NCBI RefSeq assembly: GCF_014203705.1
Contig: NZ_JACHJR010000001.1
Location: 3,286,001-3,350,000, forward strand
Length of the DNA stretch: 64,000 nt
Origin: Kitasatospora gansuensis
GTDB taxonomy: Bacteria > Actinomycetota > Actinomycetes > Streptomycetales > Streptomycetaceae
Direction of reading: 5' to 3'
Shown: positions 13,225-30,604 of the stretch, piece after piece
Numbering within the stretch: position 1 is the stretch's first letter
Layout of the letters: the number at the start of each line of letters is the position of its first letter
The notes under the pieces: model-generated
What the model was told of the DNA's origin: nothing
Seen by the model: the letters and a program-made list of their open reading frames with translations, nothing else
The model's database searches: none
Position numbers and translations under genes: made by a program

Positions 13225-16200
13225 TTGACCGTCATACCGCAGGTTCACCCTGCCTCCGGCGACCGCCCGAGGCACCGCCGACTGTCCCGGACGGTCGCCG
13301 CCACCGTGGTCGCCGCGAGCACCGGCCTGGCGCTGTTCTCGGTCGCCGCCTCGGCTGCTCCGGCGACCGGCTCGGACGCCCGGCAGCGCCAGTTCGCCGC
13401 CGCGGCCGCCGAGTTCAAGGTCCCGCAGAGCGTCCTGCTCGCGCTCGCCTACCAGCAGACCCGCTGGGAGTCGCACAACGGCGAGCCGAGCACCACCGGC
13501 AACTACAACGTGATGGGCCTGACCCAGGTCGACCCGTCCGAGCTGGTCTCCACGGAGGGTGGCCACCAGCACGGCCAGGGCGACGGCCTGCCGGAGCCTG
13601 CGGCCCCGGCCGCCACCACGCCGGCGCCGAAGCCGCAGGACAGCCCGGCCCTGCACACCCTGGACGAGGCCGCCGCACTGCTCGGCCGCCCGGCCGACCA
13701 GCTGCGCACCGACCCGGCGCAGAGCATCCGGGGCGGGGCCGCGCTGCTCGCCAAGTACCAGAGGGAGACCGGCGGTTCGCTCGGGACCGGTCCGGAGACC
13801 TGGTACAACGCGGTGGTCCGGTTCAGCCAGACGGCGCCCGCCGCCGGTGGCAACGTCTTCGCCGACCGGGTCTTCGAGACCGTCCGCGAGGGCGCGGCCA
13901 GGATCACCGTGGACGGCCAGGCCGTCAGCCTGGCGGCCGACGCCGCGCTGACCGTGGACCGCCCGCTGCAGTCCCGCGCCGCCACGCCGGGCAACCTGGA
14001 GTGCCCCGCGACCGTGAGCTGCACGGGCGCCTGGGCCGACGACGCCAACTACGCGGTCACCAACCGCCCGGCCGACGGTCAGAAGATCCAGTACATCGTC
14101 ATCCACGACACCGAGGGGTCGTGGGACGGGACCATCTCGACCTTCAAGAACCCGGCCACCGAGGCCAGTGCGCACTACCTGGTCGGTGCCGGCGGCACCC
14201 ACGACGGCCAGGTCGCCCAGCTGGTCAACACCAAGAACACCGCCTGGCACGCGGGCAACAAGACCTTCAACATGCACAGCATCGGTCTGGAGCACGAGGG
14301 CTACGCCCTCGGCCAGAACGCCAACAAGCAGCCGACCTGGTACACCGAGCAGCTCTACCGCTCCTCGGCCGAGCTGACCAAGTTCCTGGCCGGGAAGTAC
14401 GGCATCCCGCTGGACCGGCAGCACATCATCGGGCACGACGAGATCCCGAAGCCGATCGACTCGGTGCCGCCGATGCACTGGGACCCGGGCACGTTCTGGG
14501 ACTGGTCGCACTACATGGACCTGGCCGGCGCGCCGGTCCGGGCCGCCGCCGGTGGTTCGCTGCTGGTCGGCGGCAAGGTGACCATCGCCCCGCCGTTCGA
14601 CGCCAACAACCAGCCGCCGGTGGCCGAGACGGGCCCGCGCCCGCAGAACTTCGTCTACCTGCGCCAGTCCCCCGACGGCGCGGCCGCGCTGATCAACGGC
14701 GGCACCACCGCCGCCTCGGACGTCCGCGCCAAGGCGGTCGCCGGGAGCAGCTACGTGGTGGCCGCCCAGCAGGGTGACTGGACCGCGATCTGGTACGACG
14801 GCGTGCAGGGCTGGTTCCACAACCCGAACGGCCAGAGCGCCGCCGCCGACAACCGCCGCGGCCAGAACGTCGCGACCCCGCGTGCCGGTGTCGCGAGCAT
14901 CCCGCTGTACGGCCGGGCCTACCCGGAGCAGGCGGCGTACGCCAAGTACCCCGGTGTGACGTACAACCCCACCTCGCACAACCCCGTCCCGCTGAACGTG
15001 AGCGTCCCGGCCGGGCAGAAGTACACCCTGCTCAGCGACACCCCGGTCAAGGGCGACATCTTCTACGACGTCAACGGCGTGCAGGCCGTGGTGACCGGCG
15101 ACGACACCTACTACCCGGTCCGCTACGGCCACCGGCTGGGCTTCCTGAAGTCCACCGACGTCGACCTGACCGTGGCCACCGTCCCGCCGGCCGCCGGTTA
15201 CACCCCGGTCGGCCCGAAGCGGCTGATGGACACCCGGGAGGGCCTCGGCGGCTCGACCCGCCTGGGCGGCGCGGGCACCGCCTCGCTCCAGGTCACCGGC
15301 GGCAACACCGGTGTCCCGGCGGACGCCACCGCGGTGATCCTGAACGTGACGGCCGTCTCGCCCAGCCAGGGCGGCTACGTGACGGTCTACCCGGACGGCC
15401 AGCCCCGCCCGGTCGCCTCGAACCTCAACTTCACGGCCGGCCAGATCGTGCCGAACCTGGTCGTGGTCCCGGTGGTCAACGGCAAGGTGAACTTCTTCAA
15501 CGCGGCCGGCACCGTCGACCTGCTGGCCGACATCACCGGCTACTACTCCCCCAGCGGCAGCTCGAAGTTCACCAGCGCGGGCCCGGCCCGGCTGCTGGAC
15601 ACCCGGTCGTCCGGCGCGGTCGGCCCGAACAGCTCGGTCACCCTCCAGGTCTCGGGCCGCGAGGGCGTGCCCGCCGACGCCACCGGCGTGATCCTGAACG
15701 TCACCGTCACCGAGCCGAGCACCACCGGCTTCCTGACCGTCTACCCGCACGGCACCAGCCGCCCCGGGGTCTCCAACCTGAACTTCACGCCCGGCCAGAC
15801 CGTCCCCAACCTGGTGATGGTCCCGCTGGTGGACGGCAAGGTGGACTTCTACAACCCGGCCGGCACCGTCCAGGTGATCGCGGACATCACCGGTTACTAC
15901 TCCCCGGGCGGCAGCTCGAAGTTCACCAGCGCGGGCCCGACCCGCCTGCTGGACACCCGCGAGGGCCTCGGCGGCTCCACCCGCCTCGGCCCCGACGGCG
16001 TGGCCACCCTCCAGGTGGCCGGCAAGGCCGGGCTGCCCGACTCCGGCGTCACCGCCGTCGTCCTCAACGTCACGTCGGTCAACGGCAGTTCGCCCGGCTA
16101 CGTGACCGTCTACCCGGACGGCACGCCGCGCCCCGAGGTCTCCAACCTCAACTTCCTGGCCAACCAGGTGATCCCGAACCTGGTCGTGGTCCCGGTGGTC

Positions 16201-16281
16201 AACGGCAAGGTGAACTTCTTCAACAAGGCCGGCACGATCGACCTGATCGCCGACATCACCGGCTACTACACGGCGGGCTGA
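13225..16281 (+). CDS. secreted N-acetylmuramoyl-L-alanine amidase with three C-terminal LDTR/GYY modules
   Basis: Cleaves the glycan-peptide bond of peptidoglycan outside the cell. Counting from the TTG at 13225 (1018 residues): signal peptide about 15-45, a lysozyme/transglycosylase-like N-domain (FKVPQSVLLALAYQQTRWES), then an Amidase_2/PGRP domain with IVIHDTEGSW, HSIGLEHEG, IGHDEI and HWDPGTFWDW (likely Zn ligands in the first and last), an SH3-like stretch, and three ~115-residue modules at about 659-776, 780-893 and 897-1016. The start is uncertain: TTG gives the best signal peptide, with GGGAAGG 13 nt upstream; in-frame GTGs at 13057 and 13144 would add an atypical N-terminus. The modules match those of the six beta-helix proteins encoded convergently next door. 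Confidence 0.87.
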   Translation: MTVIPQVHPASGDRPRHRRLSRTVAATVVAASTGLALFSVAASAAPATGSDARQRQFAAAAAEFKVPQSVLLALAYQQTRWESHNGEPSTTGNYNVMGLTQVDPSELVSTEGGHQHGQGDGLPEPAAPAATTPAPKPQDSPALHTLDEAAALLGRPADQLRTDPAQSIRGGAALLAKYQRETGGSLGTGPETWYNAVVRFSQTAPAAGGNVFADRVFETVREGAARITVDGQAVSLAADAALTVDRPLQSRAATPGNLECPATVSCTGAWADDANYAVTNRPADGQKIQYIVIHDTEGSWDGTISTFKNPATEASAHYLVGAGGTHDGQVAQLVNTKNTAWHAGNKTFNMHSIGLEHEGYALGQNANKQPTWYTEQLYRSSAELTKFLAGKYGIPLDRQHIIGHDEIPKPIDSVPPMHWDPGTFWDWSHYMDLAGAPVRAAAGGSLLVGGKVTIAPPFDANNQPPVAETGPRPQNFVYLRQSPDGAAALINGGTTAASDVRAKAVAGSSYVVAAQQGDWTAIWYDGVQGWFHNPNGQSAAADNRRGQNVATPRAGVASIPLYGRAYPEQAAYAKYPGVTYNPTSHNPVPLNVSVPAGQKYTLLSDTPVKGDIFYDVNGVQAVVTGDDTYYPVRYGHRLGFLKSTDVDLTVATVPPAAGYTPVGPKRLMDTREGLGGSTRLGGAGTASLQVTGGNTGVPADATAVILNVTAVSPSQGGYVTVYPDGQPRPVASNLNFTAGQIVPNLVVVPVVNGKVNFFNAAGTVDLLADITGYYSPSGSSKFTSAGPARLLDTRSSGAVGPNSSVTLQVSGREGVPADATGVILNVTVTEPSTTGFLTVYPHGTSRPGVSNLNFTPGQTVPNLVMVPLVDGKVDFYNPAGTVQVIADITGYYSPGGSSKFTSAGPTRLLDTREGLGGSTRLGPDGVATLQVAGKAGLPDSGVTAVVLNVTSVNGSSPGYVTVYPDGTPRPEVSNLNFLANQVIPNLVVVPVVNGKVNFFNKAGTIDLIADITGYYTAG

Positions 16282-16357: not shown

Positions 16358-18679
16358 CTACGCCGGGGCGAAGTAGCCGAACAGGTCGGCGATCAGCTCC
16401 ACGTCGCCCTGACTCCCGTTGTAGAAGGCGTTCTTGCCTCCCGCACCGGTGGCCACCACCACGTGGTTCGGAACGGTCTGCCCCGTCACCCAGTTGAGGT
16501 TCGAGACCACCGGCCGCTCGGTGGCGTCCGGGTACACGGTCAGGAATCCCGGTGCGGCGGTTCCGGTCACCGTCACGTTCATCGCGACCGCGCTAGCACC
16601 GGGGTACTCGACCACCTCGACGCTCCGGGTGGCTCCGCCCCGCACCGTTTCGCCGGGCTCCCACTCGTCGTACCAGGGCAACGAGCCCCGGGTGTCGGCC
16701 TTCCGCACCGGCACCAGCGCGTGGAACTGGTCGCCCCCGGTCTTGGTGTAGCACCCCGCGAGATCGGCGATCAGCTGGACCTGGCCCGGGCCGCTACCGG
16801 CCACGAACAGCGAGACCTTGCCGTCCTTCACCGGGACGGTCACCAGGTTCGGGACCACCTGGCCCTTGACCCAGTTGAGGCTGGACGCGGTCGGCCGCTG
16901 CTCTCCGTGCGGGTAGGCGGTCAGGAAACCGCCGTCGGTGGCGTCCGCCACCGTCACGTTCAGGGTCACGGCGGTGACGCCGGTGGCGGGCACCCCGTTC
17001 GCCCCGGTCACCTGGAGGTCGACCGTACCGCCCTGCCGGACCGGCGCCTTGGCGGCACCCAGGCCCTCGCGGGTGTCGAGCAGCCGCACCGGGGACTTGG
17101 CGGTGAAGCCGCTGCCCTTGGTGCTGTAGAAGCCGAGCAGGTCGGCCAGCACGTGCACGGTGCCGCCGCTGCCGTTGAAGAACGACACCTTGCCGTCCCG
17201 GACCTGAGTGGTCACCAGGTTCGGGATCGTCTGCCCGGCGGTCCAGTTGAGGTTCGAGGCGGTCGGCCGCTCCGCGCCGTGCGGATACACCGTCAGGAAG
17301 CCGCCGCCGGTGGACTCGGTGACCGTCACGTTCATGGTCACGGCCGTCACACCATCGGCCGGCAGCCCGTTCAGCCCAGTGACCGGCAAGTCCATCGTGG
17401 CCCCCGGAGCGACCGGCACCCGGGCCGGGACACCGGTCGCCTCCCGGGTGTCCAGTACCCGGACCGGCCCGACGGGGGTGTAGCGGGACCCGAAGTTGAC
17501 CAACTCCTCCGCGCCCCGGTCCCGCCGTCCGCTGCCGGTCCCGGTGTCGGCCACCCAGGGGTCGTCCAGTGCCGACGATCCCCGTACGTCCACGGCCGAC
17601 ATGCCGGGCGCGCTCTCGTCCGCCGAGTCGATCGCCGGGGAGGTCCGCTCCCCCGTGTCACCCACCGAGCCGGGCAGGTTGGGCGCACCGATGACATCGT
17701 GCGCCCCCTGGCCGGAGGCCGCCGCGAACTGCGCGACCTCGTCGTACACGGTGCCCGCCCAGCTGTAGGCGGGCAGGCCGGCCCCGCTGTCGTGAAGGTT
17801 GTACGCGACCCTGGCGCCGGCCTTCGCCTCCTGGTCCACCCACAGCCCGGCGCGCTGTCCGGGGTCCGTGCAGGTACTGCCGGTGCTGTCGGTGCTGTCG
17901 GTGAGGACGTTGTTCATGACCGTCGCCCCGGTCGAGGCACCGGTCAGCCGGATCGCGGCCTCGCAGTGGCTGTCCACAGTGTTGGCCACGATCACCGTGC
18001 CCGGGGCTCCGTCGGCCACGATGCCGGGATGCCCACCGGCGGCGATCAGGTTGGTCGAGACGACCGTGTCCCGGACTCCCGGTTCCAGCACCACCAGGCC
18101 GCTGCGCTCCCCTGAGGCGTTCCGGGCCAGCGTGACGTTCCGGGCCGCGCCGGTGACCCGGACCCGTGGGTCTTCGCCGATCAGACCGGTGAGCAGATTG
18201 CCGGACAGGTTCACCTCGGTGCCGCCGTCGATCACCACCGACTCGTGGTACCCGAGCAGTTCGACCCCGCTGATCCGGACGTGACTCACCCCGCTGAGCG
18301 TGAACGCGGGCGGCATGCCCTCGAACCGCCAGAAGCCGATCTCGGTCTGCGGGGCGCGGTACCCGGCGCCCGGACCACCCGCGCCGATGAAGGTGATCGG
18401 TGCCTCGACGGTGCCGGAGCGGGTCAGTGTGACGGACTCCCGGTACTCGCCCGCTCCGATGAGCACCGTCTGTCCCGGCTCCACCTTGGCCGCCGCGGCC
18501 GAGACGGTGCAGTACGGCTGCTCCAGTGTTCCGGTGCCCGCGTCCGAACAGTTCCCGTTGAGCTTGTTGACGTAGAGCGTGGCGCTCGCCGCCACCGCCG
18601 TACCGGCCCCGAGCGCGGGCAGACTCACCGCGCCGAGCAGCAGGACAGCCCCCGTGAATGCCGCTGTAAGAGTTCTGAT
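16358..18679 (-). CDS. secreted right-handed beta-helix protein with three LDTR/GYY modules (array gene 6, last transcribed)
   Basis: Most divergent member of the array, 773 residues if read from ATC at 18679. GGAGG at 18690-18686 lies 6 nt upstream and ATC AGA ACT CTT begins a signal peptide (RTLTAAFTGAVLLLGAVSLP). The first in-frame GTG is codon 18, inside the hydrophobic core; another possible start far upstream (18784) lacks a ribosome binding site. Cys44 and Cys57 (NCSDAGTG...PYC) match the other five. Beta-helix about 60-340, linker DSADESAPGMSAVDV at about 349, then modules at about 397-518, 523-644 and 654-773. It ends LFGYFAPA where the paralogues end in Tyr. No catalytic residues are recognised; a surface or extracellular binding role is inferred. 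Confidence 0.82.
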   Translation of the reverse strand: MRTLTAAFTGAVLLLGAVSLPALGAGTAVAASATLYVNKLNGNCSDAGTGTLEQPYCTVSAAAAKVEPGQTVLIGAGEYRESVTLTRSGTVEAPITFIGAGGPGAGYRAPQTEIGFWRFEGMPPAFTLSGVSHVRISGVELLGYHESVVIDGGTEVNLSGNLLTGLIGEDPRVRVTGAARNVTLARNASGERSGLVVLEPGVRDTVVSTNLIAAGGHPGIVADGAPGTVIVANTVDSHCEAAIRLTGASTGATVMNNVLTDSTDSTGSTCTDPGQRAGLWVDQEAKAGARVAYNLHDSGAGLPAYSWAGTVYDEVAQFAAASGQGAHDVIGAPNLPGSVGDTGERTSPAIDSADESAPGMSAVDVRGSSALDDPWVADTGTGSGRRDRGAEELVNFGSRYTPVGPVRVLDTREATGVPARVPVAPGATMDLPVTGLNGLPADGVTAVTMNVTVTESTGGGFLTVYPHGAERPTASNLNWTAGQTIPNLVTTQVRDGKVSFFNGSGGTVHVLADLLGFYSTKGSGFTAKSPVRLLDTREGLGAAKAPVRQGGTVDLQVTGANGVPATGVTAVTLNVTVADATDGGFLTAYPHGEQRPTASSLNWVKGQVVPNLVTVPVKDGKVSLFVAGSGPGQVQLIADLAGCYTKTGGDQFHALVPVRKADTRGSLPWYDEWEPGETVRGGATRSVEVVEYPGASAVAMNVTVTGTAAPGFLTVYPDATERPVVSNLNWVTGQTVPNHVVVATGAGGKNAFYNGSQGDVELIADLFGYFAPA

Positions 18680-18883
18680 GGCGTACCTCCGAAGAAGCGA
18701 CTTCCCCCCACCTGAGGGTGCGTCGTCAGGATGTCCCCCGAGAGCGCCAACTCGGCGCCCACGACCTGTACTTGAAATCGGCATCAGCCGGTTTCCCCAC
18801 GAACTTCGGACGGATCATCGCACACTGCTTCGACTGCGGACCAGGGGGCACCGAAGGCCGGCGGCGTTACGCAGGGCAGTTGC

Positions 18884-21151
18884 TCAGTACGCCTCGTAGC
18901 CGAACAGGTCGACCACCAGGTGCACGGTGCCCCCACTCCCGTTGTAGAAGAGGACCTTGTCGTCCCGGACCGGCACCACGACCTGGTTCGGCACGGTCTG
19001 CCCAGCCGTCCAGTTGAGGTTGGACGCCACCGGACGCGGCGAACCGGCCGGATAGACCGTCAGGAAGCCGGCCGCGGTGGGCTCGGTGACCGTGACGTTC
19101 ATCGTCGCGCTGGTGATGTGCGGCACGCAGACGCCCAGTTCGAGCGTCTGGCCGGGAGCCACCGTGGCGGCCCGACGGGTCTCCAGGCAGGTGTTACTGC
19201 TGTCCACGCGGGTGTCCAGCAGACGCTGCGGCTGCATCGTCCGGAACGCCGTGCGCGCCCAGGCTCTGGCGCCGTAGTAGCCCGCGACGTCGGCGATCAC
19301 GTGCACGGTGCCACCGCTGCCGTTGTAGAACGAGACCTTGCCGTCGACCACCGGAACGGTCACCAGGTTCGCGATGGTCCGCCCGGGCATCCAGTTCAGG
19401 TTGGAGATGACCGGACGGTCCTTCCCGTGCGGATACACCGTCAGGTAGCCACTGCTGGTGGGTTCGGTGACGGTCACGTTCAGGGTGATCGCGGTGGCCC
19501 CGGTGAACGGGACGCCGGGGACCCCCGCCTGAAGCTCGACCGTGCCACCCGGGGCGATCGGCGTCCGGCCGGGCACGCCGATGGCATTCCGGGTGTCCAG
19601 CGAGCGGGACAGGTCCCAGGGGCTGAAGAGGCTGCCGCTGCTGCTGTAGTAGCCCGCCAGGTCGGCGATCACGTCGACGGCGGCACCGCCCACGGAGAAG
19701 GTGACCGTCCCGTCCGCATCGACCGGTACGGTCGCCAGGTTGGCCACCGTCTGCCCGGCGGCCGTCCAGTTGAGGATGGAGCTACTGCCGTTCGAGGTCG
19801 ACAGCCACCCGCCGCCGCTGGTGCCGGTGACCGTCACGTTCATGGTGACGGCGGCGACCCCGTCGGCCGGGACGCCGTGCGCGCCGGTGACCTTGAGCTT
19901 GCGCGTCGAGGTCAGCCGGCCGTTCGGCCCCTCGTCCCGGGTGTCCAGGATCCGGGTCGGCCCGGTCGGGGTGTAGGCGGTGCCGACGTCCCGGTACTCG
20001 GTCGCGCCCCGGTCCCGGAAACCCTTGCCGGTACCGGAGTTGGCCTGGATCGGATCGTCCACCGCGGAGTTGCCGAACGCGTCGACGTCCAGCATGCCGG
20101 GGGCGGTCTCGTCCGCCGAGTCGACGGTGGGCAGCGGGCGGTCGTGCTTCCCGATGTCCTCCCGGATCACCGCGCTGTCGAACGAGTCGTGCGCGCCCTG
20201 GCCGGTCTCCGCGGTGAAGTCCCACCGGCTGTTGTAGCTCTTGGTGCCCCACTCGTACGCCGGACGGTCGTTGACCGTGCTGAGCACGTTGTAGTCGCTC
20301 CGCAGGCCGGACAGAGCGGTCTGGGCGACCTTCACCTGCGGCCGGAGCTCCGCGCGGCACTGGTAGTCGGAGAGCTGACCCGTCGCGACCACGTTGTTGA
20401 CCACCACCGCGTCGGTGGCCGCACCGCCCAGCTCGAGACCCGTCCAGCAGCTGTCGAAGACGGAGTTGCTCACCACGACGGTGGCGGGCGCGTCCACCAC
20501 CGAGATACCGGTGGCGCCAGGGCCGTTGATCAGATTGGTGGTCAGCGTGGTGTGCTTCGCCCCACCGTCCACGACGATCCCGGAGCCCCACATGAACGAG
20601 AGCCAGAACCGTCCGACGGTCACGTCCCTGGAGTCGGCCCCGGTCACCCGCACCGAGGCGGCGGCAGCGCCGGTCACCTGGCCGCTCATGGCCTCGACGT
20701 CCGTGGAGTTCTCCACCAGCAGGCCGTACTGGCTCCCGGCGAAGTGCAGGTCCTTGATCCGCACGTGCTCGGCCCGCACGACCGAGAGGCCCGTCGCCAA
20801 CTCGCGGCTGCCGACCGTGACGTCCGAGGGCCACTGGCCCCACACGTAGGGGGTCCTGGTGAACGTGATCGGTGCGTTCGCCGTACCGGAGCGGGTCAGC
20901 TTGACCTGCTCCGGGTAGTCGCCCGGGGCGATGCTCACGGTCTGGCCGGGCAGCACCACGTCGGCGGCCTTCTGGACGGTGCAGAACGGCTGCGCCTGCA
21001 GACCGCTGCCCGTGTCGGAACAGTGGGCGTCCGCGGCGTTGTTGACGTAGACGTTGAGCGGAGCGGCGGCCGCGCCGCCCGGCCCGAAGGCGGGCAGGGC
21101 GAGCATGCTGAGCAGTGCGGCGGCGCTCAGCGCGCCGATGCGGGTTCTGAT
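18884..21151 (-). CDS. secreted right-handed beta-helix protein with three LDTR/GYY modules (array gene 5)
   Basis: 755 residues from ATC at 21151, with GGAGG 6 nt upstream (21162-21158). This copy is the strongest case for ATC: upstream in the same frame there is no ATG, GTG or TTG before a stop. The first downstream ATG (21106) is codon 16, in the middle of the signal peptide, and would remove its basic n-region. Cys44/Cys57; beta-helix about 60-335 with NNV/NSVF-type turns (VVVSNSVFDSC, AVVVNNVVATG). The linker contains DSADETAPGMLDVD and NSGTGKGFRDRGATE (about 373). Modules are at about 391-501, 510-625 and 637-755, ending FGYEAY. The third module has an extra Cys pair (TCLETRR, LGVCVP). 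Confidence 0.83.
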   Translation of the reverse strand: MRTRIGALSAAALLSMLALPAFGPGGAAAAPLNVYVNNAADAHCSDTGSGLQAQPFCTVQKAADVVLPGQTVSIAPGDYPEQVKLTRSGTANAPITFTRTPYVWGQWPSDVTVGSRELATGLSVVRAEHVRIKDLHFAGSQYGLLVENSTDVEAMSGQVTGAAAASVRVTGADSRDVTVGRFWLSFMWGSGIVVDGGAKHTTLTTNLINGPGATGISVVDAPATVVVSNSVFDSCWTGLELGGAATDAVVVNNVVATGQLSDYQCRAELRPQVKVAQTALSGLRSDYNVLSTVNDRPAYEWGTKSYNSRWDFTAETGQGAHDSFDSAVIREDIGKHDRPLPTVDSADETAPGMLDVDAFGNSAVDDPIQANSGTGKGFRDRGATEYRDVGTAYTPTGPTRILDTRDEGPNGRLTSTRKLKVTGAHGVPADGVAAVTMNVTVTGTSGGGWLSTSNGSSSILNWTAAGQTVANLATVPVDADGTVTFSVGGAAVDVIADLAGYYSSSGSLFSPWDLSRSLDTRNAIGVPGRTPIAPGGTVELQAGVPGVPFTGATAITLNVTVTEPTSSGYLTVYPHGKDRPVISNLNWMPGRTIANLVTVPVVDGKVSFYNGSGGTVHVIADVAGYYGARAWARTAFRTMQPQRLLDTRVDSSNTCLETRRAATVAPGQTLELGVCVPHITSATMNVTVTEPTAAGFLTVYPAGSPRPVASNLNWTAGQTVPNQVVVPVRDDKVLFYNGSGGTVHLVVDLFGYEAY

Positions 21152-21175
21152 GGCGTTCCTCCGAGGAGTCGATCG

Positions 21176-21217
21176 CCCGATGGCCCGCCCCCGCCGGAGC
21201 GGGGACGGGCCATCGGG
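21176..21217 (-). terminator. hairpin between array genes 4 and 5
   Basis: Long inverted repeat, CCCGATGGCCCG opposite CGGGCCATCGGG with one mismatch in the stem, just past the stop of the gene at 21235. It ends or attenuates transcription before the next paralogue. Confidence 0.65.
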
Positions 21218-21234
21218 CGGCTCAGGACGGTGGC

Positions 21235-23511
21235 TCAGTAGGACTGGAGGCCGAACATGTCGACCACGAGGTGCACGGTGCCCGCACTGCCGTTGTAGAA
21301 GGAGACCTTCTGGTTGCGGACCGGCACCACGACCTGGTTCGGGATGGTCTGCCCGGCGGTCCAGTTGATGTTGGACGCAACCGGGCGCGGCGAACCGGTC
21401 GGGAAGACCGTCAGGAAGCCGGCGGCCGTGGGCTCGGTGACCGTGACGTTCATGGTCACGCTGGTGAAGTTCTGCCAGCAGACGCCCAGTTCGAGCGTTT
21501 CGCCGGGTCGGACGGCCGCCGCCGGGCGTGTCGGGATCGTCCGGCAGGGGCCATGGCTGTCAACGCGGGTGTCCAGCATTCGGCCGGGCTGCTTCGGCCG
21601 GTACGCGTCGTGGCCCTGGGCGCTGTAGTAGCCCGCGACGTCGGCGATCACGTGCACCGTGCCGCCACTGCCGTTGTAGAACGAGACCTTGCCGTCCACC
21701 ACCGGGACCGTCACCAGGTTGGCGAGGGTCCGCCCGGGCGTCCAGTTCAGGCTGGAGATGACCGGACGGTCCTTCCCGTGCGGATACACCGTCAGGTAAC
21801 CGCCACCGGTGGGCTCCGTGACCGTCACGTTCATCGTCACGGCGGTGACCCCGGTGGCCGGGACACCGTTGTTGCCTGCCACCTGGAGCTCGACGGTGCC
21901 ACCGGGGGCGACCGGCGTGCGGCCTGGCACCCCGACGGCCTCCCTGGTGTCCAGCGCACGGGACGGATCGGTCGCGGTGAAGATGCTGCCGCTGCCGCTG
22001 CCGCTGTAGTAGCCCGCCAGGTCGGCGATCAGGTCCACGCTGGAGCCACCCAGGGAGAACGTGACCGTACCGTCCTGATCGACCGGCACGGTCACCAGGT
22101 TGGCCACCGTCTGGTCGGGCCCCGACCAGTTGAGCACCGAACTGCTGCCGTTTGAGGTCGAAAGGTAACCGCCACTGCTGGTCGCGGTGACGGTCACGTT
22201 CATCGTGACGGCGGCGACCCCGTCGGCCGGGACCCCGTTCGCACCGGTGACCTTGAGCTTGCGCGTCGAGACCAGTCGGCCGCTCGGCCCCTCGTCCCGG
22301 GTGTCCAGGATCCGGGTCGGCCCGGTCGGGGTGTAGGCGGTGCCGACGTCAATCAACTCGCTGGCACCCCGGTCCCGGAAGCCCTTTCCGGTACCGGAGT
22401 TGGGCTTGATCGGGTCGTCCACCGGGGCGAAGCCGTCCAGGTCGACATCCAACATGCCGGGCGCGCTCTCGTCCGCCGAGTCGACGGTGGGCAGCGGACC
22501 TGCGTGCTTGTCGCCCTGGTAGTCCATCGCCAAGCTGGCGAACGAGTCGTGCGCGCCCTGGCCCGTCGCGGCCGTGAACGTCTGCTGGTTGTCGTAGTTC
22601 ACCGGGCCCCACTGGTAGGCCGGACGGCCGTTGACCGCGCTGACCACGTTGTAGTCGGCGCGGAGACCGGATCTAGCCACCGAGCCGACCTTCACCAGGG
22701 GCACCGGCTGGGAACAGTAATCGTTCGCAAGGATGTTCGCTGCGACCACGTTGTTGACCACAACGGCATCGGTGGACTCGCCGCTGAGCTCCAGCTCGGT
22801 GTGGCACTCCGAGTAGAGCGTGTTGCTCACCACGACGATGGCAGGCGAGTCGACGACCGAAACGGCATGGTTCGCGTCGATCCAGTTGGTGGTCAGTGTG
22901 GTGTTCTTCGCCCCACCGTCGACCACGATCCCGGCCGCCGAGTAGTGCCTGACGTTGAATCGGCCGATGGTCACGTTCCGGGAGTCGGCACCGGTGACCC
23001 GCACCGCCGCGACGGAGGAGGTCTGGCCCCAGCCCTCGATGTCGCCGCGCATTGCCTGGACGTCGACGGAGTTCTCCACCAACAGACCCTGCTGGCTCCC
23101 GGAGAACCCGAGATCGCGAATCCGCACGTGCTGGGCACCCACCACCGAGAAGCCGGTGGCGACTTGGGAGGAGCCGATCGTGCTTCTCACCATGGTCGGT
23201 GGAGCCGAAGACGGGCCCGCGAAGGTGATCGGTGCACCCTCCGTCCCCGAGCGGGTCAGCTTCACCGCCTCCGGGTACGTGCCGTTGGCGATGTTCACCG
23301 TCTGGCCCGGCAGCACCGCGTCGGCGGCCGCCTGGACGGTGCAGAACGGCTGCGCCTGCAGACCGCCGCCTGCGTCCGAACAGTGCGCCTCCGCAGCGTT
23401 GTTGACATAGATGTTGAGCGGAGCGGCAGCCGCACCGCCGGGCCCGAAGGCGGGCAACGCCAGCACGCCGAGCAGTACGGCGCCCGCGAGGGCCCCTGTA
23501 CGAGTTCTGAT
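21235..23511 (-). CDS. secreted right-handed beta-helix protein with three LDTR/GYY modules (array gene 4)
   Basis: 758 residues from ATC at 23511; GGAGG at 23522-23518, 6 nt upstream. The signal peptide is RTRTGALAGAVLLGVLALP followed by a GGAAAA cleavage region; its only standard start codon is a GTG at codon 16. Cys44/Cys57 conserved. The beta-helix region carries IRDLGFSGSQQGLLVENSVD and VVVSNTLYSEC turns. The linker reads DSADESAPGMLDVDLDGF then NSGTGKGFRDRGASE. The modules follow, the third again with an extra cysteine pair (HGPCRTIP, LGVCWQ). Ends FGLQSY. It is only 41 bp downstream of gene 3 with no hairpin between, so the two are probably cotranscribed. Confidence 0.83.
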   Translation of the reverse strand: MRTRTGALAGAVLLGVLALPAFGPGGAAAAPLNIYVNNAAEAHCSDAGGGLQAQPFCTVQAAADAVLPGQTVNIANGTYPEAVKLTRSGTEGAPITFAGPSSAPPTMVRSTIGSSQVATGFSVVGAQHVRIRDLGFSGSQQGLLVENSVDVQAMRGDIEGWGQTSSVAAVRVTGADSRNVTIGRFNVRHYSAAGIVVDGGAKNTTLTTNWIDANHAVSVVDSPAIVVVSNTLYSECHTELELSGESTDAVVVNNVVAANILANDYCSQPVPLVKVGSVARSGLRADYNVVSAVNGRPAYQWGPVNYDNQQTFTAATGQGAHDSFASLAMDYQGDKHAGPLPTVDSADESAPGMLDVDLDGFAPVDDPIKPNSGTGKGFRDRGASELIDVGTAYTPTGPTRILDTRDEGPSGRLVSTRKLKVTGANGVPADGVAAVTMNVTVTATSSGGYLSTSNGSSSVLNWSGPDQTVANLVTVPVDQDGTVTFSLGGSSVDLIADLAGYYSGSGSGSIFTATDPSRALDTREAVGVPGRTPVAPGGTVELQVAGNNGVPATGVTAVTMNVTVTEPTGGGYLTVYPHGKDRPVISSLNWTPGRTLANLVTVPVVDGKVSFYNGSGGTVHVIADVAGYYSAQGHDAYRPKQPGRMLDTRVDSHGPCRTIPTRPAAAVRPGETLELGVCWQNFTSVTMNVTVTEPTAAGFLTVFPTGSPRPVASNINWTAGQTIPNQVVVPVRNQKVSFYNGSAGTVHLVVDMFGLQSY

Positions 23512-23552
23512 GGTGTTCCTCCGAAGAAGTGGGATTGCTGCGGGGCGGTTGC

Positions 23553-25808
23553 TCAGTACGACTGGTAGCCGAACATGTCGACCACGAGGTGCACCGTGCC
23601 GCCGCTGCCGTTGTAGAAGGAGACCTTCTGGTTCCGGACCGGCACCACGACCTGGTTCGGGATGGTCTGCCCGGCGGTCCAGTTGAGGTTGGACGCCACC
23701 GGGCGCGGCGAGCCGGTCGGATAGACCGTCAGGAAGCCGGCCGCGGTGGGCTCGGTGACCGTGACGTTCAGGGTCGCGCTGGTGATGTCCTGCCAGCAGA
23801 CGCCCAGTTCGATCGTCTGGCCGGGGGTCACGACGGCCGCCTGACGGTTCTTCATGCAACCGTCCTGGGTGTTCGTGCGGGTGTCCAACAAGCGGTTCGG
23901 CTGCATCACCCGGTAAACGTCGTGACCCGAGGCGCCGTAGTAGCCCGCGACGTCGGCGATCACGTGCACGGTGCCGCCGCTGCCGTTGTAGAACGAGACC
24001 TTGCCGTCCACCACCGGGACGGTCACCAGGTTGGCGATGGTCCGCCCGGGCGTCCAGTTCAGGCTGGAGATGACCGGGCGGTCCTTCCCGTGCGGATACA
24101 CCGTCAGGTAACCGCCGCCGGTGGGCTCGGTGACCGTCACGTTCATCGTGACGGCGGTGGCCCCGGTGGTCGGGACGCCGTTGTGGCCTGCCACCTGGAG
24201 CTCGACCGTGCCACCGGGCGCGACCGGCGTGTGACCGGGCACGCCGATGGCCTCCCGGGTGTCCAGCGAACGGGACGGGTCGGTCGCGGTGAAGATGCTG
24301 CCGCTGCCGCTGTAGTAGCCCGCCAGGTCAGCGATGACGTCCACTGCGGAGCCACCCAGGTAGAAGGTGACCATGCCATCCACATCGACCGGTACGGTCA
24401 CCAGGTTGGCCACCGTCTGCCCGGCCGCCGACCAGTTGAGGACGGAGCTGCTGCCGTACGAGGTCGACAGGTAGCCGGCGCTGCTGGTGGCGGTGACGGT
24501 CACGTTCATGGTGACCGCCTTGGTGACGAAGGTCGGGACGCCGTTCGAGCCGGTGACCTTGAGCCGGCGCATCGAGGTCAGCCGGCCGTTCTCCCCCTCG
24601 TCCCGGGTGTCCAGGATTCGGGTCGGCCCGGTCGGGGTGTAGGCGGTACCGACGTTCAGGTACTCGGTCGCACCCCTGTCCCGGAAGCCCTTGCCGGTAC
24701 CGGAGTTGGCCTTGACCGGGTCGTCCACCGGGCCTTGGCCGGCCACGTCGACGCCCAGCATCCCGGGCGCACTCTCGTCCGCCGAGTCGACGGTGGGCAG
24801 CGGGCCGAGGTGCCTGTCACCCTGGTACGGGATCACCGGGCTGTCGAACGAGTCGTGCACGCCCTGGTTGGTCTCCGTGGCGAAGGTCGCCTGGCTGCTG
24901 TAGCTCTCGCTGCCCCACTGGTACGCCGGACGGCCGCCGACCGCGCTGACCACGTTGTAGTCGGCCCTCAGGCCGGACCTGGACTCGGCGCTGATCTTCA
25001 CCTGCGGGGTCTGCGAGCCGCAGTTGCCGTCCGACATGGACTCGGCCGCGACCACGTTGTTCATCAGGACGGCGTCGGGAGACTTCCCGGCCAGCTCCAG
25101 TCCGACCCGGCAGCCGGCGTACAGCGAGTTGCTCACCACGACCGTGCCGGGCGAGTCCACCACCGAGACGGCGGTGGCCGAACCGGAGTTGACCAGATTG
25201 GTGGTCAGCGTGGTGCCCTTCGCACCGCCGTCCACCACCATTCCGACACCCGGGGCGTTGAGGAGCGTGAACCGGCCGATGGTGACTTTCTGGGAGTCGG
25301 CACCGGTGACCCGCACCGCAGCGGTGCTGCCACCGACCACCCCACCGTCCGTCACCCGGACGTCGCCGGAGTTCTCCACCAGCAGGCCGAACTGGCTTCC
25401 GGAGAACGAGAGACCACGGATCCAGACGTGCTGGGCCCCCACCACCGAGAATCCGGCCGTGCTCCCGGCGGAGCCGACGTTCACGAAGTTCGGCGTCCAG
25501 TGCCCACCGGGGCCCGCGAAGGTGATCGGCGCCCCCTGGTTCCCCGAGCGGGTCAGCTTCACGGACTCCCGGTACTCGCCCTGGGCGACGTTCACGGTCT
25601 GCCCCGGCAGCACCACGTCGGCGGCCGCTTGCACGGTGCAGAACGGCTGCGACTGCAGACCGCTCCCCGCGTCCGAACAGTGGGCATCCACAGCGTTGTT
25701 GACGTAGATGTTGAGCGGAGCGGCAGCCGCGCCGCCCGGCCCGAAGGCGGGCAGCGCCAGCGCGCCCAGCAGTACGGCGGCGCTCAGCGCGCCGACACGA
25801 GTTCTGAT
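23553..25808 (-). CDS. secreted right-handed beta-helix protein with three LDTR/GYY modules (array gene 3)
   Basis: 751 residues from ATC at 25808; GGAGG at 25819-25815, 6 nt upstream. The signal peptide RTRVGALSAAVLLGALALP contains no ATG, GTG or TTG codon. The nearest upstream in-frame start, GTG 25847, sits inside the hairpin that follows the preceding gene and has no ribosome binding site. Cys44/Cys57 conserved. The beta-helix has NNVVAAESM, VVVSNSLYAGC and IRGLSFSGSQFG turns. Linker, then three modules; the module 3 cysteine pair is DGCMKNRQ and LGVCWQ. Ends FGYQSY. Very similar to its neighbours over modules and signal peptide, less so in the beta-helix. Confidence 0.83.
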   Translation of the reverse strand: MRTRVGALSAAVLLGALALPAFGPGGAAAAPLNIYVNNAVDAHCSDAGSGLQSQPFCTVQAAADVVLPGQTVNVAQGEYRESVKLTRSGNQGAPITFAGPGGHWTPNFVNVGSAGSTAGFSVVGAQHVWIRGLSFSGSQFGLLVENSGDVRVTDGGVVGGSTAAVRVTGADSQKVTIGRFTLLNAPGVGMVVDGGAKGTTLTTNLVNSGSATAVSVVDSPGTVVVSNSLYAGCRVGLELAGKSPDAVLMNNVVAAESMSDGNCGSQTPQVKISAESRSGLRADYNVVSAVGGRPAYQWGSESYSSQATFATETNQGVHDSFDSPVIPYQGDRHLGPLPTVDSADESAPGMLGVDVAGQGPVDDPVKANSGTGKGFRDRGATEYLNVGTAYTPTGPTRILDTRDEGENGRLTSMRRLKVTGSNGVPTFVTKAVTMNVTVTATSSAGYLSTSYGSSSVLNWSAAGQTVANLVTVPVDVDGMVTFYLGGSAVDVIADLAGYYSGSGSIFTATDPSRSLDTREAIGVPGHTPVAPGGTVELQVAGHNGVPTTGATAVTMNVTVTEPTGGGYLTVYPHGKDRPVISSLNWTPGRTIANLVTVPVVDGKVSFYNGSGGTVHVIADVAGYYGASGHDVYRVMQPNRLLDTRTNTQDGCMKNRQAAVVTPGQTIELGVCWQDITSATLNVTVTEPTAAGFLTVYPTGSPRPVASNLNWTAGQTIPNQVVVPVRNQKVSFYNGSGGTVHLVVDMFGYQSY

Positions 25809-25835
25809 GACGGTCCTCCGAAGAAACCGGCCGAT

Positions 25836-25863
25836 GCCCGCCCCCACCGGAGTGGGGACGGGC
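25836..25863 (-). terminator. hairpin between array genes 2 and 3
   Basis: Inverted repeat GCCCGCCCCCA / TGGGGACGGGC in the 73-bp gap, downstream of the stop at 25882. Same position and near-same sequence as the hairpin between genes 4 and 5. Confidence 0.6.
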
Positions 25864-25881
25864 CTGCGGTGGAGCGATTGA

Positions 25882-28140
25882 TCAGTACCCCTGGTAGCCG
25901 AACACGTCGACCACCAGGTGCACGGTGCCGCCACTGCCGTTGTAGAAGGCGACCTTCTGGTTCCGGACCGGCACCACGACCTGGTTCGGGACGGTCTGCC
26001 CGGCGGTCCAGTTGATGTTGGAAGCGGTCGGGCGGGGCGAACCGGCCGGATAGACCGTCAGGAAGCCGGCCGCGCTGGGCTCGGTGACCGTGACGTTCAT
26101 CGTCGCGCCGGTGATGTCCTGCCAGCAGATGCCCAGTTCGATCGTCTGGCCGGGAGCCACAGCGGCCGCCTGACGGGTCTGCCTGCATCCGTCCTCGGTG
26201 TTCGAGCGGGTGTCCAGCAGGCGGTTCGGCTGGAGAGCCCGGAACACGCTGTGCCCGGCGGCGCTGTAGTAGCCCGCGACGTCGGCGATCACGTGCACGG
26301 TGCCGCCGCTGCCGTTGAACAGCGAGACCTTGCCGTCCACCACCGGGACCGTCACCAGGTTGGCAAGGGTCCGCCCGGGTGTCCAGTTCAGGTTGGAGAT
26401 GGTCGGACGGGTCTGGCCGTGCGGATACACCGTCAGGTAGCCGCCACCGGTGGGCTCGGTGACCGTCACGTTCATGGTCACGGCCGTCACCCCGGTGGCC
26501 GGGACGCCGTTGACGCCCGCCACCTGCAGGTCCACGGTGCCGCCCGGGGCGACCGGCGTCCGGCTGGTCACGCCGATCGCATTCCGGGTGTCGAGTGCGC
26601 GGGACGGGTCGGTGGAAGTGAAGATGCTGCCGCTGCCGCTGTAGTAGCCCGCCAGGTCGGCGATCAGATCGACGGAATCTCCACCCAGGTAGAAGGTGAC
26701 CATGCCCTCGTCGTCGACCGGGACGGTCACCAGGTTGGCCACCGTCTGCCCGGCACCCGACCAGTTGAGGAACGAGCTGCTGCGAAGCGTGGTCGACAGG
26801 TAGCCGGCACTGCTGGTCGCGGTGACGGTCACGTTCATGGTGACCGCCTTGACCCCGGTCGCCGGGACGCCGTTCGCGCCCGCGACCTTGAGCTGGCGCA
26901 TGAAGGACACTCGGCCGGCCCTCCCCTCGTCCCGGGTGTCCAGGATCCGGGTCGGCCCGGTCGGGGTGTAGGCGGTACCGACACTCACCAGCTCGGTCGC
27001 GCCGCGGTCCCGGAAACCCTTCCCGGTACCGGAGTTGGCCTTGACCGGGTCGTCCACCGGGGCGTAGCCGTTCGCGTCGACGTCCAGCATGCCGGGGGCG
27101 CTCTCGTCCGCCGAGTCGACGGTGGGCAGCGGGCCGACGTGCTTGTCACCCTGCCACGGGATCACCGCGCTGCCGAACGAGTCGTGCACGCCCTGCCCGG
27201 TCTCCGCAGTGAACTTCGCCTGGTTGTCGTAGCTTTCGGTACCCCACAGGTACGCCGGGCGGCCACCGACCGCGCTGACCACGTTGTAGTCGGCCCGCAG
27301 ACCGGACCTGGCCACGTCCCCAATCTTCACCTGCGGCTGCTTGTCCCAGCAGGTGCCGTCCGAGTCCGTGTCCGTCGCCACCACATTGTTGACCAGCACC
27401 GCATCGGTGCTCTCACCAGCCAGCTCAAGGCCCGTCCGGCAATGGCCGAAGAGGGAGTTGCTCACCACGATGGTGGCAGGCGAGTCGACCACCGAGACGG
27501 GCGTGCCACTACCGGTGTTGACCATGTTGGTGGTGAGCGTGGTGTTCTTCGCTCCCCCGTCCACCACGATCCCGGCTCCCTGGTACCAGAGCCGGAACCG
27601 GCCGATGGTCACGTACCTGGAGTCGGCTCCGGTCACCCGCACCGAGGCGGTGGCGGCACCGGTCACCTGGCCGCTCATCACCACGACGTCCGTGGAGTTC
27701 TCCACCACCACGCCGTACTGGCTCGCGGCGAAACCGAGGTCCTTGATCCGTACGTGCTGGGCGCCCACCACCGAGAAGCCCGTCGCCAGGCCGGTGCTTC
27801 CGATCGTCCCTTCCCAGATCTGGTGCTCCCACGGGGCAAGGGCTCCCCTGAAGGTGATCGGCGAACTCTCGGTCCCCGAACGGGTCAGTTTGACCGACTC
27901 CGGGTACGTGCCCTTGGAGATGTTCACGGTCTGTCCTGGCAGCACCGCGTCGGCGGCCGCCTGGACGGTACAGAACGGCTGCGCCTGCAGACCGCTGCCC
28001 GCATCCGAACAGTGCGCATCCGCAGCGTTGTTGACATAGATGTTGAGCGGAGCGGCCACCGCACCGCCCGGCCCGAAGGCAGGCAGCGCCAGCGCGCCGA
28101 GCAGTGCGGTGGCGCTCAGCGCGCCGATGCGAGTTCTGAT
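25882..28140 (-). CDS. secreted right-handed beta-helix protein with three LDTR/GYY modules (array gene 2)
   Basis: 752 residues from ATC at 28140, preceded by GGGGGAGAAC (purine-rich site 28150-28144). The signal peptide RTRIGALSATALLGALALP contains no ATG, GTG or TTG, and no such codon lies upstream in frame until 28305, inside the previous gene. An upstream in-frame CTG (CTG GGG GAG AAC ATC) is the only nearby alternative. Cys44/Cys57 conserved. The beta-helix contains NNVVATDTDSDG and VVVSNSLFGHC turns. Linker DSADESAPGMLDVDANGYAPVDDP, then modules; module 3 pair DGCRQTRQ and LGICWQ. Ends FGYQGY. Confidence 0.82.
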   Translation of the reverse strand: MRTRIGALSATALLGALALPAFGPGGAVAAPLNIYVNNAADAHCSDAGSGLQAQPFCTVQAAADAVLPGQTVNISKGTYPESVKLTRSGTESSPITFRGALAPWEHQIWEGTIGSTGLATGFSVVGAQHVRIKDLGFAASQYGVVVENSTDVVVMSGQVTGAATASVRVTGADSRYVTIGRFRLWYQGAGIVVDGGAKNTTLTTNMVNTGSGTPVSVVDSPATIVVSNSLFGHCRTGLELAGESTDAVLVNNVVATDTDSDGTCWDKQPQVKIGDVARSGLRADYNVVSAVGGRPAYLWGTESYDNQAKFTAETGQGVHDSFGSAVIPWQGDKHVGPLPTVDSADESAPGMLDVDANGYAPVDDPVKANSGTGKGFRDRGATELVSVGTAYTPTGPTRILDTRDEGRAGRVSFMRQLKVAGANGVPATGVKAVTMNVTVTATSSAGYLSTTLRSSSFLNWSGAGQTVANLVTVPVDDEGMVTFYLGGDSVDLIADLAGYYSGSGSIFTSTDPSRALDTRNAIGVTSRTPVAPGGTVDLQVAGVNGVPATGVTAVTMNVTVTEPTGGGYLTVYPHGQTRPTISNLNWTPGRTLANLVTVPVVDGKVSLFNGSGGTVHVIADVAGYYSAAGHSVFRALQPNRLLDTRSNTEDGCRQTRQAAAVAPGQTIELGICWQDITGATMNVTVTEPSAAGFLTVYPAGSPRPTASNINWTAGQTVPNQVVVPVRNQKVAFYNGSGGTVHLVVDVFGYQGY

Positions 28141-28210
28141 GTTCTCCCCCAGTGGGTACGGAGCCGGCCCCCGGCCGGCCCGGTGGTGCGCAGAAGCGAT
28201 CCGGTGCGCC

Positions 28211-28241
28211 GATGGCCCGCCCCGTGACCGGGACGAGCCAT
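28211..28241 (-). terminator. hairpin between array genes 1 and 2
   Basis: Imperfect inverted repeat GATGGCCCGCCCC / GGGACGAGCCATC in the 115-bp gap, just past the stop at 28256. It is related to the two other array hairpins. Confidence 0.55.
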
Positions 28242-28255
28242 CAGCTGAGGTTCGA

Positions 28256-30589
28256 TCAGTAGGCGTGGTAGCCCAGGATGTCGACCACGAAGTGGCTGTT
28301 GCCACCGCTGCCGTTGTAGAGCGAGATCTCGCCGTTCTCGTTGACCGGCACGACCACCTGGTTGGCGATGGTCTGGTTCGCGGACCAGTTCAGGCTGGAG
28401 GCCACCGGACGCTGGCCACCGGCCGGGTAGATGGTCAGGTAACCCGCCGCGGTGGGCTGGGTGACCGTCACGTTGAGCACCACGGACTTGGCCCGGACCG
28501 GGATGGTGGTCATGGTGAGGGTGTCACCGGCGGCGACCGCACCGGCCCGGCGGGTCATCTGCTCCTCGGTGTAGTCGTCCTCCCGGGTGTCCATCAGCCG
28601 CCACGGACCGACCGGGTTGTAGGTCGCGTACCCGCTCGCGCTGTAGTAGCCCGCCAGGTCGGCCAGCACCTCGACGGTGCCACCCTCGCCACCGGCGTAG
28701 AACGACACCTTGCCGTCGACGACCGGAACCGTCACCAGGTTCGGAATCGTCAGCCCGGGCGTCCAGTTGAGGTTCGACGCGGTCGGGCGGGGCTTGCCGT
28801 GCGGGTAGACCGTCAGGAAGCTGCCCTTGGTCGGGGCGGTCACCGTGACGTTGAGGGTCACGGCCGTCACGCCGGTGGCGGGCACGCCGCTCACCCCGGC
28901 GACCTGAAGGTCGATCGAACTGCCCATCTGCAGCGGCGCCTTGGCCACCCCGACACCCTCACGGGTGTCCATCAGCCGGACCGGGCCGGCCGAGGTGAAC
29001 GGGCTGCCCTTCTCGCTGTAGTAGCCCGCCAGGTCGGCCAGCACCTCGACGGTGCCACCCTCGCCACCGGCGTAGAACGACACCTTGCCGTCAATGACCG
29101 GAACCGTCACCTGGTTCGGAATCGTCTGCCCGGCAACCCAGTTGATGCTGGAAGCGGTCGGTCGGGTGGCCCCCTCGGGGTACTCGGCCCCGTGCGGGTA
29201 GACGGTCAGGTAGCTGCCCTTGGTCGGCGCTGTCACCGTGACGTTCAGCGTCACGGCGGTGACACCCGTGGCGGGCACGCCGTTGACCCCAGCCACCTGC
29301 AGGTCGATCGAACTGCCCATCTTCAGCGGCGCCTTGGCCACTCCGACACCCTCACGGGTGTCCATCAACCGCACCGGACCGGCCGGCGTGAAGACACTGC
29401 CGAAGCCGAGGAACTCGTCGGCGCCCCGGTCCCGGATCCCGCTGCCCGTACCGGTGTTGGGGACGACCGGGTCGTCCTTGGCCTCATGGCCCCAGCTGTC
29501 GAGCGGCAGCATGCCGGGCGCGTTCTCGTCGGCCGAGTCGATGATCGGCGAGAGCTGCGGCGTCTTGCCGTCGTACGGGATGGACGGGTCGGCCACCACG
29601 TCGTGCGTACCGTCGCCGGAGGCCGCGTGGAAGGCAGCCTGGTCCCGGTAAGCGACGCCCGCCCAGTCGTAAACCGGACCACCGGCGACCGGGCTGATCA
29701 CGTTGTAGTCGACGTCCGCCGTCGGGGCAGCGGCGGCAGACACGGTAAGCCCGGTGCTGTCCTTGCCCGCCGGGCAGGCACCGCTCGGGTAGTTTTTGGA
29801 GGTGTCGATCACGTTGTTCCGGACCACCGCACCGGTGGAAGCACCGGCCAGCACGATGCCGTTGCCGCAGCTGCTCTTGACGGTGTTGCTCACCACCACC
29901 GTGTTCGGCGACCCGAGCACGACCAGCGCCGGGTACGAGTCGGACGAGTTGACGAAGAACCGGTTGGTGCTGATCACCGTGCCGGTCACCCCGGCGTCGA
30001 CCACCACGTTGCTGTTGCCGACGTAGGAGAAGTCCATCCCCGCCACCCGCACGTCACTGGAGGTCCCGGCGATCCGGATGCCCGGTGCCGAGGGGCCACC
30101 GCCCCAGACCGAACCACGCAGCAGCGAGATCTTCGAGGAGTTCTCGATCAGCACCGCCTCCGCGCCGCTGCCGGTGAACTCGACGCCCTCGAACGAGACG
30201 TGCTGCGCACCGGAGGCCCAGAGCGCGTGCAACCCGGCCTTCCAGTCCGTCTTGCCGATCTGGACGCCACCCATGGCGTCCACCCGGTCGGCCCCGACGA
30301 AGCGGATCGGCGCACCGGCCGTACCCGACTTGGTGAGCTTCAGCTGCTCGTCGTACCGGCCGGTCGCGATGTGCACCGTCTGCCCGGCCTCGGCCTTCCC
30401 GGCCGCCGCCGACACGGTGCAGAACGGCGCCGTCGGCAGGCCGGAGCCCGCGTCGGTGCAGTTCGACCCGGCCGCGTTGTTCACATACAGATCGGCGGTC
30501 GCGGCCCCGGCAACGCCGGGCCCGACCACGGGTGCCACCAGGGCAGCCAGAATCGCGGCGCCCGCCAGGGCGCCTCTTCGCGTCTTGAT
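28256..30589 (-). CDS. secreted right-handed beta-helix protein with three LDTR/GYY modules (array gene 1, first transcribed)
   Basis: 777 residues from ATC at 30589: ATC AAG ACG CGA gives a textbook signal peptide start (KTRRGALAGAAILAALVAP), with GGGGGACAAC upstream. Unlike the others, an in-frame GTG lies four codons upstream (30601), but it overlaps the G-rich site and has little Shine-Dalgarno of its own. Cys44/Cys57 conserved (NCTDAGSG...PFC). The beta-helix has VVVSNTVKSSC and VVRNNVIDTSK turns; linker DSADENAPGMLPLDSWGH and NTGTGSGIRDRGADE. Modules start at about 396, 525 and 655. Modules 1 and 2 share a 79-bp identical block. Ends LGYHAY. Repeat motifs in front of it may control the array. 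Confidence 0.82.
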   Translation of the reverse strand: MKTRRGALAGAAILAALVAPVVGPGVAGAATADLYVNNAAGSNCTDAGSGLPTAPFCTVSAAAGKAEAGQTVHIATGRYDEQLKLTKSGTAGAPIRFVGADRVDAMGGVQIGKTDWKAGLHALWASGAQHVSFEGVEFTGSGAEAVLIENSSKISLLRGSVWGGGPSAPGIRIAGTSSDVRVAGMDFSYVGNSNVVVDAGVTGTVISTNRFFVNSSDSYPALVVLGSPNTVVVSNTVKSSCGNGIVLAGASTGAVVRNNVIDTSKNYPSGACPAGKDSTGLTVSAAAAPTADVDYNVISPVAGGPVYDWAGVAYRDQAAFHAASGDGTHDVVADPSIPYDGKTPQLSPIIDSADENAPGMLPLDSWGHEAKDDPVVPNTGTGSGIRDRGADEFLGFGSVFTPAGPVRLMDTREGVGVAKAPLKMGSSIDLQVAGVNGVPATGVTAVTLNVTVTAPTKGSYLTVYPHGAEYPEGATRPTASSINWVAGQTIPNQVTVPVIDGKVSFYAGGEGGTVEVLADLAGYYSEKGSPFTSAGPVRLMDTREGVGVAKAPLQMGSSIDLQVAGVSGVPATGVTAVTLNVTVTAPTKGSFLTVYPHGKPRPTASNLNWTPGLTIPNLVTVPVVDGKVSFYAGGEGGTVEVLADLAGYYSASGYATYNPVGPWRLMDTREDDYTEEQMTRRAGAVAAGDTLTMTTIPVRAKSVVLNVTVTQPTAAGYLTIYPAGGQRPVASSLNWSANQTIANQVVVPVNENGEISLYNGSGGNSHFVVDILGYHAY
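28639..29092. repeat. 79-bp identical intragenic repeat in array gene 1
   Basis: Bases 28639-28717 and 29014-29092 are identical over 79 bp at a distance of 375 bp (one module). Both encode the end of a module (GKVSFYAGGEGGTVEVLADL region). Further near-identity around 28913 and 29306 points to a recent in-frame module duplication or gene conversion. Confidence 0.85.
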
Positions 30590-30604
30590 GTTGTCCCCCA
30601 CGTA

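Follow-up and report, generated by a model that had tools for sequence, protein, structure and literature searches.

Probable AUC and AUU start codons shared by a family of exported beta-helix proteins in Kitasatospora gansuensis and its relatives

Introduction

Can a whole family of exported bacterial proteins begin translation at a codon other than AUG, GUG or UUG? The question is raised by a tandem array of six paralogous genes in Kitasatospora gansuensis, which lies within a stretch of 64,000 nucleotides that was analyzed as a whole (the window). A first-pass annotation of this DNA proposed that all six genes start at ATC behind a Shine-Dalgarno (SD) sequence. AUU is the start codon of E. 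coli infC and, to our knowledge, AUC or AUU starts in bacteria have been documented for very few single genes. Here we compare the array with its homologues, with the rest of the host genome, and with infC and sigR.

Results

The six-gene array

All six genes lie on the minus strand, and each has an in-frame ATC at the point where its signal peptide begins. In four of them GGAGG stands exactly 6 nt before the ATC, as proposed: gene 1 (16358-18679), which encodes a secreted beta-helix protein of 773 aa, has its ATC at 18677-18679 and GGAGG at 18686-18690; gene 2 (18884-21151, 755 aa) has them at 21149-21151 and 21158-21162, gene 3 (21235-23511, 758 aa) at 23509-23511 and 23518-23522, and gene 4 (23553-25808, 751 aa) at 25806-25808 and 25815-25819. 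The ATC codons of genes 5 and 6 are preceded by the G-rich sites GGGGGAGAAC and GGGGGACAAC, respectively, with an SD-like GGGGG 5 nt upstream, at 28146-28150 for gene 5 (25882-28140, 752 aa; ATC 28138-28140) and at 30595-30599 for gene 6 (28256-30589, 777 aa; ATC 30587-30589).

The codons that follow the ATC are AGA ACY in five genes and AAG ACG in gene 6, and when residues are numbered from the ATC, cysteines 44 and 57 fall at the same positions in all six proteins. The first-pass annotation had also given every protein one of two opening motifs, (I)RTR.GALSA or (I)KTRRGALAG; this fails for gene 1, which reads IRTLTAAFTGA. Identity between gene 2 and the remaining array genes ranges from 45 to 73%. 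Because the six genes are paralogues, they do not represent six independent events, and the argument has to be carried by comparative data.

The intergenic gaps at 21154-21235, 25811-25881 and 28143-28255 are filled by GC-rich hairpins, placed just upstream of the next SD (-59, -37 and -69 kcal/mol, respectively, for gap plus start), and the one at 25831-25850 resembles a terminator. The 41-base gap before gene 3 has no hairpin. These hairpins could possibly be terminators, insulators or mRNA-processing elements. A consensus scan for promoters and terminators was uninformative, with no promoter (0.6 expected) and two terminator-like sites (4.8 expected).

Start codons in the homologues

A profile was built from 23 N-terminal halves and searched against named genome contigs (78 loci) and 70 genomes of the host genus. 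A match at E 1e-80 or better was found in 35 of the 70 genomes, and 19 of the 70 had a member scoring above 420. Removal of exact duplicates left 144 homologue N-termini, earlier loci included. We defined the close subfamily by a score of at least 420, to which one contig-cut row (the second L141 row, score 256) was admitted by hand, and excluded rows whose HMM score was below 170 or whose match fell only in the later part of the profile. The counts leave out L013 and L017, which are cut loci of genes counted as L063 and L001, as well as a pair of L044 rows from genome G047, to which no start could be assigned. In G047, two members (L044/L096) carry repeated, Arg-rich, low-complexity codons at the expected start site. 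A search of a plasmid collection with the N-terminal 400 residues of gene 2 gave only four weak partial matches, useless for start annotation.

Among the 47 close members with an assigned start, the start codon was ATC in 32, ATT in 8, ATG in 3, GTG in 2 and TTG in 2, so that 40 of 47 carry a start codon outside ATG, GTG and TTG behind an SD. The 40 ATC/ATT members are spread over 18 genomes, namely 16 of the genus, S. fildesensis and Actinacidiphila paucisporea. The host genome (8.3 Mb) contains 11 close members, the six in the array and five elsewhere, and all 11 have ATC. The homologues strongly support the proposal of ATC initiation: every one of the 47 has ATC, ATT, ATG, GTG or TTG at the assigned position behind a G-rich SD, an agreement that is partly by construction because the start rule considered no more than nine start-like codons and favored the canonical ones with a bonus. 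When the profile was read without any start model, the first profile column or the one before it held one of these five codons in 46 of 49 rows, and at the in-frame positions nearby (-5 to +8) the number of members with any of these codons lay between 0 and 11 of 47. At three internal columns with an isoleucine majority, Ile was replaced mainly by GTC, a spectrum unlike that of the start column. The codon preceding the assigned start is also ATC in 11 of the 47, and the choice between the two therefore rests on SD spacing, which favors the second.

In 45 of the 47 the assigned start coincided with the aligned column or lay one codon upstream. The pattern that the first-pass annotation had named as speaking against its reading, a canonical start at another aligned position while the ATC position drifts, was seen in one genome only, G007, whose members L227 and L095 have GTG/ATG nine or ten codons upstream. 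Automatic calls in 88 more distant members gave GTG in 35, ATG in 34, TTG in 11 and other codons (CTG, GTC, ACG or ATT, not checked by hand) in 8.

A second genome also has a six-member tandem array (L097, G041:C1:4481401-4496793), in which all members have ATC and group together on the tree. In the ATT members, ATT TCC AGA takes the place of ATC ARA (L085, L086, L087 and L089, and L135, L136, L140, L141, L143, L146 and L223, which are partly the same genes).

Conservation of the start codon

We built a quick maximum-likelihood tree of 71 rows, which included the 25 best of the 88 distant members and left out the second L141 row (TTG) as too short. It required five changes when ATC, ATT and canonical codons were distinguished, and four when non-canonical codons were set against canonical ones. 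The ATT rows form a derived group inside the ATC rows, and returns to ATG/GTG occur at three places (L039, the G007 group and L148). The tree fits a single ATC ancestry in which ATT arose once and ATG/GTG came back a few times. About 25.7 amino-acid changes per site are spanned by the ATC/ATT rows; among the 11 host paralogues, identity in the region compared is 35-72%.

How firmly the codon is held bears on the alternative that AUC/AUU is the true start and has no regulatory role, having arisen once by drift in an ancestor and persisted because a strong SD suffices and counter-selection is weak. Turnover between G and C/T at the third base of the start column amounted to four changes, compared with a median of seven at 49 four-fold columns, of which 14 had four or fewer. 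The start column is thus no outlier and resembles ordinary four-fold sites, as this alternative would have it; the comparison gives no sign of strong purifying selection on the third base, and selection for ATC over ATG is unproven by this test. The close relatives L039, L144 and L148 also carry ATG or GTG at the same place. Against drift stands the behavior of ATT: all eight ATT rows keep it, whereas a third-base T was kept in all eight at none of 364 columns after residue 25 (in seven rows at one column) and in at most five rows within codons 2-26. Since no other compared codon keeps its third-base T in this way, ATT is held. ATC, for its part, persists in all the host paralogues and over a long tree, and in the more distant relatives 80 of the 88 automatic calls are ATG, GTG or TTG. 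The maintenance of ATT is clear and that of ATC only suggestive, and we consider an unregulated start unlikely.

Alternative start codons and coding onset

A true AUC/AUU start also has to be weighed against the possibility that a canonical in-frame codon elsewhere is used and that ATC is an ordinary isoleucine codon. Many members do have an in-frame GTG, TTG or ATG upstream or downstream, the two G007 members use upstream canonical codons, and in gene 1 an ATG preceded by a weak 4-base SD match stands 35 codons before the ATC. For the three array genes named by the first-pass annotation, its account of missing alternatives was borne out. Gene 2 has no in-frame ATG, GTG or TTG from the ATC up to a stop 137 codons upstream, and its first canonical codon downstream is an ATG at codon 16. 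Codons 2-36 of gene 4 are free of such codons, and its GTG 13 codons upstream has no SD match. The 40 codons upstream of gene 5 contain none either, a GTG being found 55 codons before the ATC, and the first one downstream is the GTG at codon 28.

The same holds across the family. No in-frame ATG, GTG or TTG occurs up to the upstream stop in 12 of the 40 ATC/ATT members; 10 of these 12 also have none in codons 2-13, and 5 have none in codons 2-36. Thus 10 of the 40 have no in-frame canonical codon that could yield the predicted signal peptide. An SD core, by comparison, lies 4-8 nt upstream of the ATC/ATT in all 40, and no out-of-frame ATG, GTG or TTG was found within 8 nt of the start in any of them.

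Codon log-odds trained on the host genome were negative in all four blocks upstream of the ATC/ATT (-0.27 to -0.42), close to zero in the first nine codons and then positive, with the same pattern at 74 canonical starts of family members. The frequency of A/T at third bases peaked in codons 2-4, at 0.47, compared with 0.22 in the preceding six codons and 0.06 past codon 30, and canonical members have a peak at the same place. With alternatives absent in 10 of the 40 members, the SD placed at the ATC/ATT in all 40 and no coding signal upstream, a canonical start elsewhere was rejected as very improbable.

All 32 ATC members have A as the base after the start (ATCA), a feature shared with the infC loci that were read, whereas 58 of 87 canonical members have C. 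This A may reflect basic second codons or may aid near-cognate initiation, in sequences that are related and not independent.

Frequency in the host genome

The background rate was estimated in a sample of 1.2 Mb of the host genome with 934 gene calls. A loose rule, which asked for an SD match of at least 5 followed by an in-frame ATC/ATT near the start, was passed by 28 of the 934 sampled genes, and flags all 11 host family genes, infC and one further hit in the window, at 34939. That hit is false, since it falls within a reading frame that has an ATG farther upstream, near 35022. The strict rule added that canonical codons be absent within 6 codons and that none have an SD of its own. It left 1 of the 934 sampled genes, with a marginal SD (AGGAG at 9 nt), compared with infC and 8 of the 11 host family genes, the three dropped being gene 6 (ATC at 30589), L062 and L065. 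A chance pairing of SD and ATC was rejected on these numbers. The feature is therefore rare outside the family, although roughly one in four genes of this type would escape the strict rule.

infC, sigR and the initiator tRNA

The infC gene of the host genome reads AAGGAGG-CCCC-ATC-AGC. A search of 61 genomes belonging to the same class gave 59 infC matches, of which 30 loci were read, the host's among them; the start was ATC in 29 and ATT in 1. An ATC start of infC is likewise described for Streptomyces, and in S. coelicolor IF3 represses translation of sigR from GTC, a start proven by codon-to-stop changes and infC mutants (PMC5472188). Impaired IF3 fidelity raises the expression of sigR, and overproduction of IF3 lowers it (PMC5472188). 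Feeney et al. 2017 could not show that sigR repression is relieved under oxidative stress (PMC5472188). For in vitro translation, another study reports that with extra IF3 a smaller share of the full-length product is correctly started at third-base mismatches, such as AUU read by CAU (PMC10158994). In the host sigR (L300, at about 2,945 kb) we find the AGGAGGTGGGTCCGGTC context in which the GTC start was proven for S. coelicolor.

The array genes share with infC both the start codon and the SD arrangement, whereas infC is a single, essential, autoregulated housekeeping gene and the array belongs to a multi-copy exported family with no known link to IF3. Like sigR of Streptomyces, they pair a non-canonical start with a strong SD; unlike it, they use ATC instead of GTC and form a family in place of one regulatory gene.

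ARAGORN predicted 64 distinct tRNA sequences at the 76 tRNA matches in the host genome. The only initiator type among them, with the GGG/CCC anticodon stem and the acceptor-end mismatch, has the anticodon CAU; a second match to the initiator pattern lies in a tRNA-Ser, outside the anticodon arm. A dedicated initiator tRNA or altered decoding that starts AUC with isoleucine, for which the use of AUC itself and nothing further speaks, is extremely improbable, as no special initiator was found among these 64 predicted sequences and the sole tRNA-Ile(GAU) lacks the initiator stem.

The protein product

In each of the six proteins a signal peptide and a right-handed beta-helix are joined by a C-terminal half that is made up of repeats and matches nothing in Pfam. 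The Pfam Beta_helix domain (PF13229) was reported for all six and exceeds the curated cut-off of 25.9 bits in five, gene 3 scoring 23.5 bits. Other sequence searches gave little: NCBIfam, searched with three of the six proteins, returned only weak matches far below cut-offs, and solved structures returned one weak match, the xylosidase 3vst (E 0.038). A search of the genome with gene 2 gave 85 matches, many of them to the C-terminal repeats. The convergent neighbor of the array (window positions 13057-16281, plus strand), whose sequence reads as amidase-like, also carries C-terminal repeats of this type at its end.

An AlphaFold2 model of gene 2 had a mean pLDDT of 87.4 and a pTM of 0.84, with pLDDT below 50 in the signal peptide (residues 1-28). 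Residues 30-388, approximately, of the model align with beta-helix enzymes that act on glycans (Z 25.8-28.9 for the best five listed). Within this Z range lie 5mqp, 6kfn, 5olr and the pectate lyase Pel9A (1ru4), at a sequence identity of 14-17%, and the parallel beta-helix fold of pectate, rhamnogalacturonan and alginate lyases was matched with Z of 24.1-27.7 to 6kfn, 5olr, 1ru4 and 7dmk. The array proteins resemble these enzymes in the predicted parallel beta-helix fold and differ from them in the repeats of the C-terminal half and in the low identity. A fold common to the gene 2 model and the lyases does not show function; the proteins may act on extracellular glycans.

Discussion

Taken together, these results make it nearly certain that AUC or AUU is the true start in this family. 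With CAU on the only initiator type among the predicted tRNAs and with the precedents of infC and sigR, the most economical reading is that fMet is placed on AUC and that IF3 represses this step. The G-rich SD 4-8 nt upstream would position the fMet initiator tRNA on AUC despite the third-base mismatch, and the protein would begin with fMet, followed immediately by the signal peptide. Since this codon-anticodon pairing is near-cognate, initiation is expected to be weak and sensitive to IF3, as at infC (AUC) and sigR (GUC). By analogy with those two genes, the family start is probably repressible by IF3.

Many species retain this choice of start, and this suggests that a translational brake is built into the genes: the non-canonical start would tie the output of exported beta-helix protein to IF3 and to the status of the ribosome. 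The first-pass annotation had likewise supposed that AUC may throttle or condition the synthesis of these proteins. The gene for IF3 is itself AUC-started and, in Streptomyces, partly under SigR. We regard the chances that the start serves as a biologically meaningful brake as evenly balanced. The combined reading, a genuine AUC start made by the ordinary initiator tRNA, IF3-sensitive and with a brake as its most likely use, we hold to be highly probable, because its core is the start itself.

In the open-licence PMC papers that were searched, we found none that deals with AUC/AUU starts in a family of this kind. Individual genes with rare starts are known, and that literature yielded no exported multi-copy family in which AUC is conserved and has been exchanged for AUU. 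In this case the host genome alone has 11 close AUC-start paralogues, and AUC or AUU is common to 18 genomes. Annotation that admits only ATG, GTG and TTG must misplace or truncate these signal peptides, as the first-pass annotation had anticipated.

More tentatively, the AUC/AUU start might be a shared control element of a cell-surface family, with IF3 setting the output of a paralogous exported coat. If true, this would be a translational regulon defined by the start codon and not by a promoter or an RNA element. The family also offers a natural experiment, with AUC, AUU, AUG, GUG and UUG at one aligned position, and thus a clean system for asking whether IF3 regulates genes beyond infC and sigR, and why a start codon stays weak over long evolution.
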